In this document: positions 25,247 through 51,138 of the stretch, one piece after another
Numbering within the stretch: the first letter of the stretch is position 1
Layout: every line of letters begins with the position of its first letter
From: an uncultured Chloroflexus sp.
GTDB taxonomy: Bacteria > Chloroflexota > Chloroflexia > Chloroflexales > Chloroflexaceae
Assembly (NCBI RefSeq): GCF_937129525.1
Contig: NZ_CAKZNK010000019.1
Location: forward strand, 1 to 51,718
Direction: 5' to 3'
DNA: 51,718 nt
The notes under the pieces: generated by a model
Told to the model about the DNA's origin: nothing
The model's input: the letters and a program-made list of their open reading frames with translations, nothing else
Database searches by the model: none
Program-made: the position numbers and the translations under genes

Positions 25247-26620
25247 TCATACCGTACTTGAAAAGAGTGGCCGCTCGCTGGCCTGTTGTAAATAGCGATC
25301 AAGCTCCATCGCCAGATTGCGGATGAAAAACCGTCCTCGTTCTGTCACCCTTAACCGGCGCGGCTCCACTTCGACCAGGCCATCGTCGGCATAGGCGGCA
25401 ATCCGTTCGATCTCGCTGGCGAACACGTCGCCAAGACGTTGACCATCAGGCGGCAGCGACAGATCGAAGGGTACCTCAAGATTGCACATCAGATGCATAA
25501 TCGCCTTGCGCCGCCGAATGTCGTCATCGCTCAGCCGCATCCCGCGCGTAATCGGCAACTGGCCGGCGTCAATCGCGCGCTGGTAATGGCCCAAATGCGA
25601 GTCATTTTGCGCATAGCGACCGGCCATGTCACCGATGGCGCTCATGCCGAAGCCGATCTGATGCGGCGCCGGCAAGACCGTATAGCCCATAAAGTTGCGT
25701 TGCAGCCGCCGCTCACGCGCCGCTATTGCCAGTTCGTCATCGGCCAGGGCAAAGTGATCCATCCCGATCCATTCGTAGCCGACTGCCGTCAAGGTGTCAA
25801 TAGCTTGCCGGAAGAGTTGAAACTTTTCATAGCCGGTTGGCAACTGGCGGGCATCAACCCGCTTCTGATTGGGCCGGGCCTGTGGCAGATGGGCATAGCT
25901 GAAACAGGCAATCCGGTCGGGCCGCAGATCGATCATCGCCTGCAAAGTGGCGGCAAAGCTGGCCGGAGTCTGGTACGGCAGGCCGTAGACCAGATCAATG
26001 TTGATGCTGGTAAAACCGGCATCACGCGCTGCTGTAACCACCGTCTCAGTCTGACTCAACGGCTGGATACGGCCAATTGCGATCTGCACCTCCTCGGCAA
26101 TGTCCTGCACGCCAAAGCTGATCCGGTTGAAACCCAGTTCGCGGAAGAGAAAGACCTGCTCGCGACTGCCGATCCGTGGATCAACCTCCAGCGCCACTTC
26201 TGCCTCAGGATCGATGGTAAAAGCAGCCCGCAACATGCCCATTAAACGCCGTGTCTGCGCCTCATCGAGAAAGTTAGGGGTGCCTCCACCCCAATGGAGT
26301 TGCGTGACACGCCGTCCGCGGTTCAACACCGCAGTGACCATTGCCAGTTCGCGCTCGATCCGGTCAAGGTAGTGGTCAACTACGTCGGCCCGTTTGGTCG
26401 AAGTCGCGTTGCAACCACAATAGGCGCAGCGTTCGGCGCAAAAAGGCAAATGAACGTAGACGCTGATCGGGTCGTCGGTAGCGGCGACATCGCGCAGCGC
26501 ATCCAGATAGTCTGCGGCGGTAAAACTGGCACTCCAATGCGGTACGGTGGGGTAACTGGTGTAGCGTGGGCCAGGACGGTTGTAACGATCAATCGTTGCG
26601 TGGCTGATCTCGATAGTCAT
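25247..26620 (-). CDS. hemN: Oxygen-independent coproporphyrinogen III oxidase
   Basis: A 457-residue radical-SAM enzyme that decarboxylates coproporphyrinogen III to protoporphyrinogen IX without oxygen. The four-cysteine motif LPFCAERCAYCGCNATSTKR is that of true HemN enzymes, not of the haem chaperone HemW. N-terminal RYNRPGPRYTSYPTVPHW is the HemN arm. HWGGGTPNFLDEAQ is present, and QRNFMGYTVLPAPHQIGFGMSAI forms the substrate side. The start at 26620 follows AGAGGGG. It is consistent with (bacterio)chlorophyll and haem synthesis under anoxic light. The leader has a hairpin and a possible promoter. Confidence 0.95.
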   Translation of the reverse strand: MTIEISHATIDRYNRPGPRYTSYPTVPHWSASFTAADYLDALRDVAATDDPISVYVHLPFCAERCAYCGCNATSTKRADVVDHYLDRIERELAMVTAVLNRGRRVTQLHWGGGTPNFLDEAQTRRLMGMLRAAFTIDPEAEVALEVDPRIGSREQVFLFRELGFNRISFGVQDIAEEVQIAIGRIQPLSQTETVVTAARDAGFTSINIDLVYGLPYQTPASFAATLQAMIDLRPDRIACFSYAHLPQARPNQKRVDARQLPTGYEKFQLFRQAIDTLTAVGYEWIGMDHFALADDELAIAARERRLQRNFMGYTVLPAPHQIGFGMSAIGDMAGRYAQNDSHLGHYQRAIDAGQLPITRGMRLSDDDIRRRKAIMHLMCNLEVPFDLSLPPDGQRLGDVFASEIERIAAYADDGLVEVEPRRLRVTERGRFFIRNLAMELDRYLQQASERPLFSSTV

Positions 26621-26645
26621 AGCAACCCCTCTTGGCGGCGGATGG

Positions 26646-26668
26646 CGTAGTTTGGTTTTCAAACTACG
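26646..26668 (-). promoter_or_regulatory. Hairpin in the hemN leader
   Basis: A 9-bp perfect stem (26646-26654 with 26660-26668, 5-base loop) ends about 25 bases before the hemN ATG, just upstream of its ribosome site. It could be a stability or control element. It has no T tract and is not a classical terminator. Confidence 0.4.
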
Positions 26669-26724
26669 GAAAGAACGAAAAACCTTAACCCCATGATGTG
26701 CCAAAAAGTGCATGATCAACTCTG

Positions 26725-26733
26725 ATTGTAGCA
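26725..26733 (-). promoter_or_regulatory. Extended -10 promoter for hemN
   Basis: On the minus strand TGC followed by TACAAT forms an extended -10 element about 105 bases before the hemN start. No good -35 is seen. The site is in an AT-rich stretch, as expected for a promoter. Confidence 0.45.
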
Positions 26734-26981
26734 TGATAGTCAATTGTTTGATTATTCGAGCAATTAGTTCGTAGCGGATGGGAAAAGCCATTTTTCCGTA
26801 TAAGAATGCGATGGTTTGCCGCGCAAGCGGCTGAATTCGTTGCGAAAGCGCAATCTTAAATGAGTGTTTTTCTCGCGAATGAAGCTGGTCTCTGGTGCTT
26901 GATCACATCGCCTTGCGATCTCATGCTATACTGTAGTGCTGCATTCCCGGGCAGCGAACCAGATGATGTACGGTGATTTCC

Positions 26982-27299
26982 ATGAATCGTTCTCGACATC
27001 GACCGATCCGGTTGAGTGCCTTGCGCTGTATCGCTTACGAAATCTCGCTCAATGGCTGGCGTATTCTCCGCCGCACCGTCAATGATTTTAGCCTCTGGCG
27101 ATTAATCGAATATCCCTGGGCAGCGAAAGCCCTCGATGTCCGTCGCGGCGATCTGGTTGTCGATATTGGTTCAGGCACCTCCTCGTTTCCCTATATGTTG
27201 CGTGAAGATCGATGTTATCAAATTTGTTATCGTGTATTATCATGGGAACAAAATCCGTTCCAGATGCGTCTCTCGTTCGAGAGACTTATTTCAGGTTGA
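26982..27299 (+). pseudogene. Truncated class I SAM-dependent methyltransferase
   Basis: About 105 residues remain. The N-terminus (LRCIAYEISLNGWRIL, then LWRLIEYPWAAKALDVRRGD) leads into the SAM-binding motif I, LVVDIGSGTSSFPYMLRED. After this the frame runs into CYQICYRVLSWEQNPFQMRL, which has no methyltransferase character, and stops. Base composition drops at the same point (near 27200), and the next gene begins 3 bp after the stop. The rest of the methyltransferase fold, normally 100-200 residues more, is missing. The likely cause is a deletion or recombination joining an unrelated AT-richer segment. Confidence 0.65.
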
Positions 27300-27302
27300 C
27301 TT

Positions 27303-28565
27303 ATGCGAGTTTTGTATATATTGCCGCGCTATGACCGCACGGCGATAGCCAATCAAATACATACTGAAATAATTTACACTTGGCGCTCGTTTGGCATCGA
27401 GGCAGAAATATTAAGCTTCTCGTCTCAATACCGCTCGCCATTACGAAGCGTTGAAGACGGAGTCGTAGTCCATCGCTGGCCTTCTAGTGGTTCCTTGCCA
27501 AAGCGAATTGCCAACCGATTGCTGTACGCTCTTTTCCCATACCCATTTCTGTTCAGTCTCATCGAAGGAATGCATCGATTGTTGACTGCTGTAGCACCTT
27601 TCGATCTTTGCCATGTGGAAACTGCATTTCCTTTAGGGTGGGCAGCCGTACTTGCTGGACGTCACATGCCTCCGTTGGCGATAACCCTGCCTGGTGCTGA
27701 TGTGATGTCTGAACCGAAATTCGACTACGGGTATGCTCGCTTCCGTTCCGTTCGCGTAATTTTGCCAAAGGTCTTTCAACAGGCGTTAGTTATCAGAGCC
27801 GACTCACCAATGATTCGAGATCGTGCTATTCATCTTGGCGCACCCGCTTTTAAGGTAAAAGCTATTCCGTATAACATCACTAACAGTAGTTTGCCACCGC
27901 CTGACGTGCCAATAGACTCCTTTCGATCTCACTGTCGAGAAATGGTTGTCAAACGGCATCAACTTACGCCTGACCAACCAATTGTCATTAGCCTGAATCG
28001 ACTACACCCTTTCAAAGGAATAGTATATCTTGTCGAGGCCTTGCCGACTGTGCGCGCCGCAGGTTTGAGGCCACAAGTCTTAATCATTGGTCCCAATCGT
28101 GTTACTCCCACTTTTGGTGATTACGCGGCATTCCTTCGCCGACGGGCTGTAGAGTTAGGCGTGGCCGATCAGGTAATGTTGATCGGTGCCATTCCGCAAG
28201 AAGAGGCGATAAAGTATCTTGCAGCGGCTGATGTGGCTGTTGTTCCCTCTGTTGCTGAGGCTTTCAGTCGAGTGGTTATTGAAGCCTGCGCGGTAGGTAC
28301 ACCGCCTGTGGTTACAAGTACTACCGGTGCCAGTGTATACGTTGCAGCAGCCCAAGCTGGAATTGTTGTTGAGCCGTGTTCCGGTCAAGCAATTGGTGAG
28401 GCAATTATACGCCTTCTCCGTGATTCTGCGACCTGGCAGACATTTAGTGCGCACGGAGTGATGCTAGCGCCAAAATTTACGTCGACTCAAGTCGCTACCG
28501 AATTGGCGCATCTGTACTATGCAGCATTGCGCGGAGATTATAAGTCTGATTCAGTCTTGTTTTAG
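27303..28565 (+). CDS. GT4-family glycosyltransferase
   Basis: A 420-residue GT-B transferase. The N-terminal half (MRVLYILPRYDRTAIANQIH) is the acceptor domain. The C-terminal half has ISLNRLHPFKGIVYLVEAL and VPSVAEAFSRVVIEACAVGT, the E-x7-E nucleotide-sugar motif, near residues 320-335. Such enzymes build exopolysaccharide or glycosylate surface proteins. It starts 3 bp after the truncated methyltransferase frame. It is the first gene of the AT-richer block, with codon use unlike the genes on either side. Sugar and acceptor are unknown. No flippase or polymerase gene is nearby. Confidence 0.84.
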   Translation: MRVLYILPRYDRTAIANQIHTEIIYTWRSFGIEAEILSFSSQYRSPLRSVEDGVVVHRWPSSGSLPKRIANRLLYALFPYPFLFSLIEGMHRLLTAVAPFDLCHVETAFPLGWAAVLAGRHMPPLAITLPGADVMSEPKFDYGYARFRSVRVILPKVFQQALVIRADSPMIRDRAIHLGAPAFKVKAIPYNITNSSLPPPDVPIDSFRSHCREMVVKRHQLTPDQPIVISLNRLHPFKGIVYLVEALPTVRAAGLRPQVLIIGPNRVTPTFGDYAAFLRRRAVELGVADQVMLIGAIPQEEAIKYLAAADVAVVPSVAEAFSRVVIEACAVGTPPVVTSTTGASVYVAAAQAGIVVEPCSGQAIGEAIIRLLRDSATWQTFSAHGVMLAPKFTSTQVATELAHLYYAALRGDYKSDSVLF

Positions 28566-28624
28566 TCTTAGTAACGTTCTTGCTTCGTTGGATCAGTAAC
28601 CGTCAGTTAGTCCAGGAGGTCTTC

Positions 28625-29395
28625 ATGGCTCGTCGAACGAAACTAATGCCACTGCTAGCAGTTATGGTTGCGGGAATTGCTTTATTCGCTGCGCTTGTTT
28701 TGATATTACGCCCAGGTCAAGCAAAGGAAAGTGGGCCACTTCTACAATATCCTCCTGAACAGCCAGCACCCACGATTGGTCCTAATCCTACGCTTCCGGC
28801 TGGCTTAGCATCTGGACCGCTATTTGTAGCTGATTTCACTACTGCTGAAAGCTTAAGTGATTGGCAACTAGTCGAGCTAGATTTTACCATGCCCGGTGAG
28901 AATGCTAATTGGGTGATTGACAATGGCCGATTACGGCAAGATTTTACCGGTGAGTTACGGAGTAGTCTGCTGCATGAAGTGGCAGCACTTGCGCCTGGTG
29001 TGTATTCCAACGGTGTTGTGCGAGTCAGCTTCTACGATGAAGCAAACGGTGTTGTGGGTCTCATTGCTCATTATCAGGGGGAGCCTGGCTACGAATCTAG
29101 CTATTACCGATTGCGTTTGCTGAAAAACGAATACGAGGCAACTCCGAAGTACAGGCTCGATAAGGTGGTTGAAGGGGTTGTCTTCGAGCTGGGTACCGTC
29201 GAAGGACCAGGATTTGTGCCGCAGCAATGGAACGTTATTGAACTCGAATTTCGTAATGGCACGTTATTAGCCCGTTTAAACGGGAAACTTCTGATGCATG
29301 CAACCGATACCGAACCTCTGCCGGCTGGTAAAGTAGGAGTTTATACTCTTGCAATCGGTGGTATTTTCTTCGATGATTTCATCGTTGGTCAGTGA
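28625..29395 (+). CDS. Membrane-anchored LamG-like beta-sandwich protein
   Basis: A 256-residue protein. MARRTKLMPLLAVMVAGIAL starts an N-terminal anchor (hydrophobic to about residue 30), followed by a Pro-rich linker (PEQPAPTIGPNPTLPAG). The rest, FVADFTTAESLSDWQLVELD to GIFFDDFIVGQ, has the pattern of concanavalin-like laminin-G/DUF1080 sandwiches: 'D-x-W', 'YYRLRL', 'LEFRNGTLLARLNGK' and a final 'FDDF'. These folds bind carbohydrate or other ligands outside the cell. AGGAGG precedes the ATG. It sits between a GT4 transferase and a propeller-like protein. Function not established. Confidence 0.6.
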   Translation: MARRTKLMPLLAVMVAGIALFAALVLILRPGQAKESGPLLQYPPEQPAPTIGPNPTLPAGLASGPLFVADFTTAESLSDWQLVELDFTMPGENANWVIDNGRLRQDFTGELRSSLLHEVAALAPGVYSNGVVRVSFYDEANGVVGLIAHYQGEPGYESSYYRLRLLKNEYEATPKYRLDKVVEGVVFELGTVEGPGFVPQQWNVIELEFRNGTLLARLNGKLLMHATDTEPLPAGKVGVYTLAIGGIFFDDFIVGQ

Positions 29396-29460
29396 TAGTT
29401 TGGTCCTATTCTTTCGCTTGACAGTGACGATCATTGTTTCTGCATTGGGAGATTGATCAT

Positions 29461-31797
29461 ATGGTCGCAATTCGCACATTACGCTACCTCCTGGTTATCT
29501 GTATCATCGGGTTTATTGCCACGCTGTTTCCGTTTCTTTCTCATGCTCAGGAACCACCAACCGCTCTGGTGCGTGACATCAGTAATATAGGTGCCAGTAA
29601 TGCAAAATATCCGCAATTGGCAGTAAATGACAGAGGAGTTTATATCAGTGCAGTTGATGAAATATCTGCCAGTAACGACGGCAAGGCGAAGCTCTGGATC
29701 AAAGGTGAGGAGGACGAAGCTTTTCAAAGTCCTTTGGTGTTGGGAAGTGTAACACGTGGTACCATCCATGATCATGTCCAAACTTCAGTAACGACAGCAC
29801 CTACTGGCGAAGTATACGTGATGTGGATTGATCAGGTGGCTAAAACTATTAAATTACGCCGCCGTGAACCAGATGGTAGCTGGAATCCTGTTGTCTTCGA
29901 GGTTATGCGTGGTCATAACTTTGCAGCAGAGCCAGCGCTCGCAGTGCGGCGTACTGATGGACAAATTGTGGCGGCTTGGCGAGAAGCCGCGTTGGGGAGA
30001 ATTAACTATACGTACTCGAATAACCGTGGACTGACCTGGGCACCCGTTCGTGAGATCTCTACACCCGCCTATAAGATGCAGCAGACAGCAATGGCTGCAG
30101 GACCAAATGGTGAAATAGTGTTGCTGTTTATTCGTGATAATCCGCGACCGATTCACGTGATGGCTACATTCTGGAGTGGAACTGTCTTCGGTCCTCCACG
30201 CGATATCAATAGTGATCCGTCGCAAATTTCACAAGCGTATGGTGATGCCAGCGCTACCTTTACGCCCGAGCCCGCACCGAATACTAGGATTGTGATTGGA
30301 TACCGTCATGTTGACGAAGGTATCTTCCTTATTGAGAAACCGGTATCTGAGTTCAGTGCGCCATGGAATCCCGTGCTTTTGGCTAGCGGTAAAGGTGATA
30401 GCCGTGTCTCCGTTGACTACGATCAGAATAGCAATCTGCACGTTTCATGGATTCGCTCGAATATTCCTGGAAATCGGCGCACAAATCAAATACACTACAC
30501 GATGAAACCAGCAGGTCGAAATGCATTCCTGCCGATTGCTACTGCCTCGCAAGTCTGGCGAGTGTTCAGTGCGTTTGGCAAAGCCAGGGAGGGTCTATAC
30601 CCTTACATGCATGTAGCCTATGAGATCTTTACAGGAGAATCACAAATCCCCATACTCGGTTACGCGCAATTTCGCGGCCCGAGACCTGCTCGGTTTAGTT
30701 CCCCGCCAGTGATTGAGGATGATACGATTATAGTTGGTGGTGATGGAAGAACGACGATAAATGTCAAGTTCCCTAACCTGACTTCATCCTTTCTACCCGA
30801 TCAGGTGCGCTGGCGCTGGGGCGCGCCGCCGACCGACACCGAAACCGATTCCGACGGCTGGGTACCCTTCGCTCCCTCACTCTCCGTGCCTATCCCGGAA
30901 GCGATGCGTACCGATGCCGGTTGCGTTGAACGCACACTGTATACTCAGTTGCGTAATGTGAGTAACAATTTCACCGATCAGGTATATTCTGATACGGTGA
31001 TTTTGGATCTGGGTGTTAATGTGACTGTTATCATGGGGAACCCCTTTTCACGAATCAAGACGTCACCGTTTACCGGTGCTTCACTGATCGATATGCTTGC
31101 AGAAGGGGGAGCAAGTGATGGTCACCCTGATTATAGCCGGGAGAGATTTATTTTCACTGAAATCCGCGATGCTGGCGATTGCAGTGGTTTACGTAGCTTC
31201 AGACTAGCGCCCAATACTACGTCACTTGGTCCTTACCCCTTATACGAGATTAGGGGCGGTCGATTCGCAAATATCATAGCATACCCCCATATGATACCCG
31301 AAGGCCCTATGCCAGTAGCTATTCAGATACGTGATGCAATGAATAATTCAGTTATCATATCGCGTACCTTCATATACGATAGGACAGCGCCGGTTTTAAA
31401 CAGCGGGAATCTGCAAGCGCAATCGATCAGTGACGCGGCGAAGATGATCGTAAGCCTGCAATTTACCGATCTCTCCGTCACTGACAATCTCTACCCCGAT
31501 CGCGGGTTCTGGGGAGTCTGGCTGGCGAACAGTCGCGCGGCCAGGACGAATCCGGCTACCGATCCGCAATTGGTCTGGACACCGGTCGAGGCGCCGGGAG
31601 AGGGCAATAGCTTTACCGTCATTTGGAGTCTCGCTACCGGTCTACCCGAAGATCAATTGACGCCGGGCACATACTACATCTACGCTCGCGTGCTCGATGG
31701 CGCCGGCAATCCCAGCGCGACGGTTTTGCCGGTAGCCGAAATCTCGATCGATGAGGTCACCTTCCCGCAGATGTTTTTGCCGATCATCAATCGATAA
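29461..31797 (+). CDS. Large secreted protein with sialidase-like propeller and C-terminal FLPIINR tail
   Basis: A 778-residue protein with a signal peptide (ICIIGFIATLFPFLSHAQ, cleavage after Ala-Gln likely). The N-terminal half has repeated propeller-type blades, e.g. SNNRGLTWAPVREIS resembling the Asp-box of sialidases and DYDQNSNLHVSWIRS. The middle contains WRWGAPPTDTETDSDGWVPF with Cys-containing motifs. The C-terminal part has an Ig-like segment (FTDLSVTDNLYPDRGFWGVW), and the protein ends TFPQMFLPIINR. The final hydrophobic-LP-hydrophobic-Arg tail recurs, from memory, on many Chloroflexota exported proteins. GC content changes twice inside the gene. Catalytic sialidase residues were not identified, so a binding role is possible. 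The start at 29461 is an ATG; a TTG nine codons upstream is less likely. Confidence 0.66.
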   Translation: MVAIRTLRYLLVICIIGFIATLFPFLSHAQEPPTALVRDISNIGASNAKYPQLAVNDRGVYISAVDEISASNDGKAKLWIKGEEDEAFQSPLVLGSVTRGTIHDHVQTSVTTAPTGEVYVMWIDQVAKTIKLRRREPDGSWNPVVFEVMRGHNFAAEPALAVRRTDGQIVAAWREAALGRINYTYSNNRGLTWAPVREISTPAYKMQQTAMAAGPNGEIVLLFIRDNPRPIHVMATFWSGTVFGPPRDINSDPSQISQAYGDASATFTPEPAPNTRIVIGYRHVDEGIFLIEKPVSEFSAPWNPVLLASGKGDSRVSVDYDQNSNLHVSWIRSNIPGNRRTNQIHYTMKPAGRNAFLPIATASQVWRVFSAFGKAREGLYPYMHVAYEIFTGESQIPILGYAQFRGPRPARFSSPPVIEDDTIIVGGDGRTTINVKFPNLTSSFLPDQVRWRWGAPPTDTETDSDGWVPFAPSLSVPIPEAMRTDAGCVERTLYTQLRNVSNNFTDQVYSDTVILDLGVNVTVIMGNPFSRIKTSPFTGASLIDMLAEGGASDGHPDYSRERFIFTEIRDAGDCSGLRSFRLAPNTTSLGPYPLYEIRGGRFANIIAYPHMIPEGPMPVAIQIRDAMNNSVIISRTFIYDRTAPVLNSGNLQAQSISDAAKMIVSLQFTDLSVTDNLYPDRGFWGVWLANSRAARTNPATDPQLVWTPVEAPGEGNSFTVIWSLATGLPEDQLTPGTYYIYARVLDGAGNPSATVLPVAEISIDEVTFPQMFLPIINR

Positions 31798-50209: not shown

Positions 50210-50998
50210 TCAGGTATCGACGCTACCGGCAAGTCTTGCTCTGGCTTCCCGAAGCAATTTAAGATCACTTTCTGTATGTAGTGGCGGTTCCTGGTTCACT
50301 GTCTGCAGGCAATAATCCCACCATTGCGTGGCATAGTCAGTATATCCTTCCAGATGTTGCACAACGGCCTGCCAGTCTTTGTTTTTCCTGGCAATTTTGG
50401 CTCTGGCGCTGGCTATCTTGCGCAGCTCGTCTAATACAGCCGGCGATGGGTAAGCTTTCAGCAGCAGCTCCTCTGCCTTCTCAAGATTCCCATTCTTGCG
50501 GAGTTGTCGCACATATTTGAGCTCGTCGTCGCCCAGAGCTATTCGCTCTGGCGAGGTAGCGGAAATATTCAGGCGACGCCCTCTGATGCGTTCGGCCTCA
50601 ATAAGAAAGGCGGTCGGATCTCTTCCTTCACTCGATGCCAGTCCGGCCATTTCTCGATAAACTTGCTCGAGCATGTGAGCATCGCGCGCAGAACGACGGA
50701 CAAGCTGATTCAGAATCCGCCACAAAGTATCAGTAACGCTGGCTTGACTACCGAACTGCTTACTAAGCTCACTCATGTATATATCAAAATCTTTTCGCGC
50801 AATACCAAAGATTTCAAGGCGGGCTAACCAGTCAATAATCATAGCCTCATCATGCGTAACCAGCGCTCCATTGCGCGCGAAAATGAATTTGCCACAATGA
50901 GGGCATGCCTGTTTGCGAATTGGTTTGGTTGGTAGTTTCTGGTCGCAATTTGGGCACGTTGGCTGCCGCTGGAGGAATTTCAGGATGAATTTCATCAT
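50210..50998 (-). CDS. Zinc-ribbon protein of unknown function
   Basis: A 262-residue soluble protein. MMKFILKFLQRQPTCPNCDQ gives CxxC at Cys15/Cys18, and QACPHCGKFIFARNG gives a second at Cys32/Cys35, so one zinc ribbon. The rest is helical and charged, with an acidic start (DEAMIIDWLARLEIFGIARK) and a repeat-like C-terminal region (LRKNGNLEKAEELLLKAYPS) suggestive of TPR-type helices. The ATG at 50998 is preferred, but no good ribosome site is seen. Upstream TTG codons extend the frame to 51079. It is not recognised as a family. Confidence 0.6.
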   Translation of the reverse strand: MMKFILKFLQRQPTCPNCDQKLPTKPIRKQACPHCGKFIFARNGALVTHDEAMIIDWLARLEIFGIARKDFDIYMSELSKQFGSQASVTDTLWRILNQLVRRSARDAHMLEQVYREMAGLASSEGRDPTAFLIEAERIRGRRLNISATSPERIALGDDELKYVRQLRKNGNLEKAEELLLKAYPSPAVLDELRKIASARAKIARKNKDWQAVVQHLEGYTDYATQWWDYCLQTVNQEPPLHTESDLKLLREARARLAGSVDT

Positions 50999-51138
50999 AT
51001 CATCATAATTGTTGCGGCTCGCTCTAGGATTATGGCGTGTTACATAGACACAAACATGCGCAATCTTGGAAGTGGTCAATAACGTGAGAGTGTCATCTGC
51101 GAATCCGATCCGCTTCTCACACGTTGATTGCCTTGGCG

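Follow-up and report, generated by a model that had tools for sequence, protein, structure and literature searches.

Results

The window analysed here is the whole of contig C19 (51,718 nucleotides), one of the 157 contigs of a draft assembly of an uncultured Chloroflexus. The locus of interest is bordered on the left by a radical-SAM gene of the HemN kind (25247–26791, minus strand, with Radical_SAM and HemN_C domains), a conserved neighbour for which a DNA match was found beside the locus in 7/7 congeners. It is followed on the plus strand by a truncated methyltransferase ORF (26982–27299 as called, 105 amino acids from an ATG, with an alternative GTG start at 26973), by the gene of a GT4-family glycosyltransferase (27303–28565) and by two genes for proteins of 271 and 787 amino acids (28580–29395 and 29434–31797), which gave weak matches, below the Pfam cut-off, to 3-keto-disaccharide hydrolase and BNR_2, respectively. 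The succession of hemN, methyltransferase, GT4, 271-aa and 787-aa genes is the resident order of the genus, and the intact methyltransferase gene which a first-pass annotation of this DNA had predicted for the same position lies between hemN and the GT4 gene in six of the seven congeners. In the seventh, G004, neither a match to the methyltransferase nor a remnant of it was found; there hemN is 368 bp from the GT4 gene, whose GC3 is 0.56, and this genome indicates that the methyltransferase can be lost without an AT-rich block.

What remains of the methyltransferase gene in the window is its 5′ part. The retained codons 1–70 (26982–27191, plus strand) carry what we take to be SAM motif I, and residues 1–77 or 1–78 of the stub show 79–88% amino acid identity to the full-length proteins of the six congeners. 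The full-length methyltransferase of relatives is about 280 amino acids long, with open frames of 286–357 amino acids in the six congeners. The stub was matched in 28 of the 41 genomes searched, the window's own counted, and all 27 matches outside that genome fell within open frames of at least 236 amino acids. The first-pass annotation had left room for a short protein shared with relatives; no such protein was found in the 41 genomes. The stub of 105 residues matched no Pfam and no NCBIfam model; the full-length methyltransferase of congener G007 matched Methyltransf_11 (PF08241) at residues 60–159 (1e-12). Instead of the complete Methyltransf_11 domain of a class I SAM-dependent methyltransferase, the stub holds about a tenth of it, and for this reason enzyme function cannot be expected. 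That a resident methyltransferase was destroyed at the junction, as first proposed, is borne out by the truncation at 27191/27192, and the GT4 gene does begin 3 bp past the stop of the stub.

The break can be placed to the base by comparison with another contig of the same assembly, C93. The two are identical through 27191, the end of codon 70, and diverge from 27192. G+C is 0.543 in 26982–27191, 0.378 in 27192–27302 and 0.470 in 27303–27502, and this sharp step inside the gene, from 0.54 to 0.38, agrees with the earlier remark that the sequence turns AT-rich where the methyltransferase character ends. The boundary of base composition is confirmed, with a refinement: the step within the gene is sharp, but the intergenic DNA ahead of the methyltransferase (26792–26981) is also low in G+C, only 0.49, with similar values (0.44–0.58) in six congeners. 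GC3 of the three genes past the junction is 0.43 (GT4), 0.41 (271-aa) and 0.49 (787-aa); of the 32 other long ORFs retained from the window, 31 have values of 0.61–0.78 and one has 0.49. This last ORF (50210–51079), the sole other long one in the window with low GC3, adjoins the right end of the contig. The left junction first proposed for this place can be kept: a divergent segment rich in AT starts at 27191/27192.

Contig C93 is 4377 bases long and its 5′ end is identical to 77 bases of the window (27115–27191, plus strand), which form the branch point of two assembly paths. Past these bases comes the remainder of a methyltransferase gene that is intact but for the end of the contig, then a GT4 gene, a gene for a protein of 270 amino acids and the greater part of a 787-type gene. 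The part from GT4 to the 787-type gene has about 65% DNA identity to window positions 27302–30916, so that identity along this flank changes abruptly from 77/77 to this level. GC3 on C93 is 0.71 for GT4, 0.81 for the counterpart of the 271-aa gene and 0.67 for the 787-type gene, which is partial. When the ends of the window, of C93 and of 60 further contigs out of 155 (some covered for their first 20 kb only) were compared, overlaps of exactly 77 bases occurred eight times, the remaining overlaps being of 37–65 bases and one of 193; this shows 77 to be the overlap (k) used by the assembler. Does C93 then come from the same organism? The window and C93 differ at 0 of the 77 bases, whereas six congeners differ from the window at 10–17 of them and the closest two of the six are 5 apart, and C93 is therefore very likely of the same species. 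The 5′ end of C93 coincides with the branch and there is no sequence of its own leftward. On the right it stops inside the 787-aa-type gene, where its match to the window is only 37 exact bases, not 77, and no other contig carrying this right end was found in the assembly. As C93 does not rejoin the window by 77 bases on this side, the bubble is open at this locus; its left junction is exact.

The assembly has another place with two paths. Contig C69 joins both C97 and C142 by exact 77-base overlaps, and both of these join C13, which makes a closed two-path bubble. Such a bubble usually means that the reads came from two haplotypes. On C142 (7.1 kb) the products include two DNA methylases and a XamI-type restriction endonuclease; on C97 (6.0 kb) three ORFs were tested and gave a methyltransferase, an alpha/beta hydrolase and a domain for aminoacyl-tRNA editing. 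The restriction system is in one haplotype (C142) and absent from the other (C97). No tRNA genes were found in C97, C142 or C93.

The 111 bases between the left junction and the GT4 gene fall into two parts. The first, an AT-rich filler of 52 bases (27192–27243, plus strand), contains at most a weak echo of the methyltransferase in its first 23 bases: a left-anchored DNA alignment to the methyltransferase was reached by 2 of 200 shuffles, which, with the site chosen after viewing, is a weak hint. We also considered the tail as an out-of-frame methyltransferase remnant (IDVIKFVI against IDVVVLEL) and rejected it; the protein alignment scores in the three frames were 30, 19 and 21, and the score of 30 was that of the in-frame stub. 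The second part holds a locus-specific element upstream of GT4, GGGAACAAA-N14-CGTCT (27244–27271, plus strand), which lies inside the truncated ORF and is read through, so that part of the odd C-terminus of the stub is translated control sequence. In 8 of the 9 GT4 upstream regions compared (window, C93 and seven congeners, the exception being G004 with a degenerate form), GGAACAA and CGTC[AT] recur at a constant distance, 27 bases overall, and the element ends 31–39 bases ahead of the GT4 start. The strict GGGAACAAA-N14-CGTCT pattern occurs five times in eight genus genomes, at most once in each and always before this GT4 gene, and its backwards control not at all; G001, G006 and C93 each miss it by one fixed base. 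Two conserved boxes at a fixed spacing, GGAAC and CGTC, resemble a promoter of an ECF sigma factor, and the element may be a promoter of this type.

The element was recognised by local alignment and pattern only. Aligned locally to the seven methyltransferase-to-GT4 stretches, the 111-base tail fell on the GT4-upstream element in six; the scores were reached by 2 (C93), 1 (G001), 61 (G002), 18 (G003), 2 (G005), 37 (G006) and 0 (G007) of 200 shuffles. Searched by BLAST against 13 genomes, the tail did not bring up the element in congeners; its best outside match, in a genome of a distant kind, covered 23 bases (E 0.025). At the end of the element there is a short inverted repeat, TCTCTCG-TT-CGAGAGA (27269–27284), which was not seen by eye in the other GT4 upstream stretches.

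The GT4 gene of the window is a divergent AT-rich allele. Its protein has both the Glycos_transf_1 domain (PF00534, 3e-31) and the N-terminal Glyco_trans_4-like domain (PF13579, 2.7e-13), and solved structures 6kih and 3c4q are related to it by sequence. Identity to the GT4 gene of C93 is 80, 87 and 35% at the three codon positions, which suggests that both alleles code for a working protein and are probably under purifying selection. In a tree of 21 rows (16 of 36 named loci, the window, C93 and three congeners) the two pair at 100/99 support, with branches of 0.40 for the window and 0.12 for C93. No relative closer to the window GT4 than C93 (72%) was found in 41 relatives, 400 genomes drawn from the phylum and the 36 named loci, the last of these sets possibly lacking the genome of the window itself.

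The 271-aa gene is likewise an AT-rich allele; in its tree the window row was not placed with C93, and joint placement was not rejected (p-AU 0.18). The tree of the 787-aa protein did not decide whether window and C93 pair. The C-terminus of this protein (31774–31797) reads FLPIINR, and two relatives at one locus of G007 (L027) end in VPVVSR and VPLVSR; the FLPIINR end is reminiscent of a Chloroflexi C-terminal sorting motif, and a motif scan of the window found no other end like it. The 271-aa and 787-aa genes are a tandem pair that is present twice in four of the seven congeners (G007, G003, G006 and G004; loci L027, L030, L031 and L032); in the other three the compared contig ends before any second pair could show. 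The two 271-aa copies are 86–98% identical within a genome and mostly 65–85% between genomes, a pattern which suggests concerted evolution. Each of the two versions of the locus in the window's genome shows one pair, and a search with the 787-aa protein matched only C19 and C93 there.

How far does the AT-rich segment reach? The 787-aa gene is AT-rich and divergent except for an island and its 3′ end. Identity to C93 jumps at about 30798 and is near-complete up to the end of C93 at 30916; this native-like island (30798–30916, plus strand) shows one substitution and has 15 bases fewer in the window. Past 30916 the window is again low in G+C and in similarity to congeners, and both return to native level at an approximate right edge (31444–31489, plus strand), across which the 787-aa ORF runs unbroken into native sequence. 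The single clean right end at 31400 that the first-pass annotation had drawn has to be given up for a mosaic edge. No transposase or integrase gene was found in the block, the ORFs of which are resident orthologues, and no convincing repeats of at least 14 nt frame 27192 and ~31,490; one 17-nt repeat pair of 88% (27038 and 31737) is of the kind expected by chance.

Discussion

We consider it probable that homologous recombination has put an AT-rich allele in place of the resident segment, that the methyltransferase was lost and that the haplotype of C93 coexists with the new one. The replaced segment would extend from methyltransferase codon 71 to ~31,490, and its place would have been taken by a related donor's divergent and AT-rich version of the same genes. 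The methyltransferase would have lost its final three quarters at the left joint or soon after, and past the joint the GT4 gene would have kept its own upstream element. The other haplotype, represented by C93, would retain the intact methyltransferase and a GT4 gene of normal composition in the sequenced population. It was originally left open whether the segment had been replaced or inserted; because the block consists of resident orthologues in resident order and keeps the GT4 upstream element, replacement of alleles fits and insertion of new genes does not.

Several steps of this reading are indirect. We infer that C19 and C93 represent alternative alleles at a single site and do not lie side by side in the same chromosome; most likely two haplotypes coexist and the AT-rich one was assembled in the window. 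It is the window block that appears to be the import, because of its low GC3 (0.41–0.49) and the loss of a gene. A step from 0/77 mismatches to ~65% identity, with 35% at GT4 third positions, is not to be expected from drift in place; recombination is the likely route, and a mosaic segment would be expected for exchange between partly similar alleles. Our searches identified no donor. As no closer relative was found in the 41 or the 400 genomes, the donor was probably an unsampled near relative. The pairing of the two GT4 genes would mean either that the donor was very near this lineage or that one gene is a duplicate of the other, and in this respect it counts against replacement, as do the missing donor, the open right side of the bubble at C93 and the failure of BLAST to bring up the upstream element in congeners. 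A role in surface glycans is suggested by the GT4 family and by neighbours that look exported; the product would then be a surface glycan that has lost a methylation.

Could both versions instead lie in one chromosome through duplication of the methyltransferase-GT4-271-787 unit, with C93 as the copy that stayed normal and the window copy turned AT-rich by drift and shorn of most of its methyltransferase? The GT4 tree, with its firm pairing and long window branch, is what such a duplication would give, four of the seven congeners already carry the 271/787 pair twice in tandem, and the native-like island at 30798–30916 could be gene conversion between copies. We nevertheless regard it as unlikely: C93 starts exactly at the branch with nothing leftward, as for a second exit of one flank, two paths occur elsewhere in the assembly as well, and the 271-aa proteins of window and C93 are not placed together, although their joint placement was not rejected. 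Still less probable is an error of assembly that joined an AT-rich block from another organism. A draft of 157 contigs built with a 77-base k, in which composition and identity change abruptly at one base, invites such a suspicion, but the block has the same orthologues in the same order, together with an upstream element found genus-wide before this GT4 only, and its 787-aa ORF is unbroken over the right edge into native sequence. Moreover, a path in a de Bruijn assembly requires reads that span the joint. A simple internal deletion of the methyltransferase in a resident strain, which would make the AT-rich genes long-standing residents that evolve fast, seems to us very improbable. Congener G004, with no methyltransferase and hemN close to GT4, and the weak echo of the methyltransferase past the joint (2/200 shuffles) would accord with it, but it leaves unexplained why C93 is identical over 77 bases and then differs by 35% in the next genes.

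The proposed replacement of the resident segment by recombination has parallels in better known systems. Alleles of surface polysaccharides, for example the O-antigen, are exchanged by recombination in conserved flanks. The O-antigen of Bordetella is, judging by the title of the report, an example of such exchange (PMC3849452). The locus described here is like these systems in its conserved flanks, in a divergent segment of low G+C with a glycosyltransferase gene and in having more than one allele per species. It is unlike them in that the segment is small, the gene content equal and the methyltransferase cut at the joint, and its surface role is surmised from the genes. G004 resembles the window in having kept GT4 without the methyltransferase, but there the gene is cleanly absent from the genome, with 368 bp left, and the GT4 gene is of normal composition. 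Among the papers listed by the literature searches, no title or displayed abstract dealt with this locus. The process itself is ordinary; here both versions of the locus are visible in one draft assembly.

The methyltransferase is present in six congeners and on C93, cut in the window and absent from G004. Perhaps, then, the cell surface is switched time and again at this site in the genus, the methyltransferase being kept or lost along with the exchange of GT4 alleles, and the polymorphism persists within a population, for instance under phage pressure on a methylated glycan; we offer this as a speculation that is more likely wrong than right by a wide measure. What can be said is that a probable surface-glycan locus is seen with and without its methyltransferase in one assembly. 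The window contig is one haplotype only, and annotation of C19 alone would wrongly deny the species this methyltransferase. The locus also offers a testable promoter-like element of its own, and the same assembly has another polymorphic place, one that involves a restriction system.
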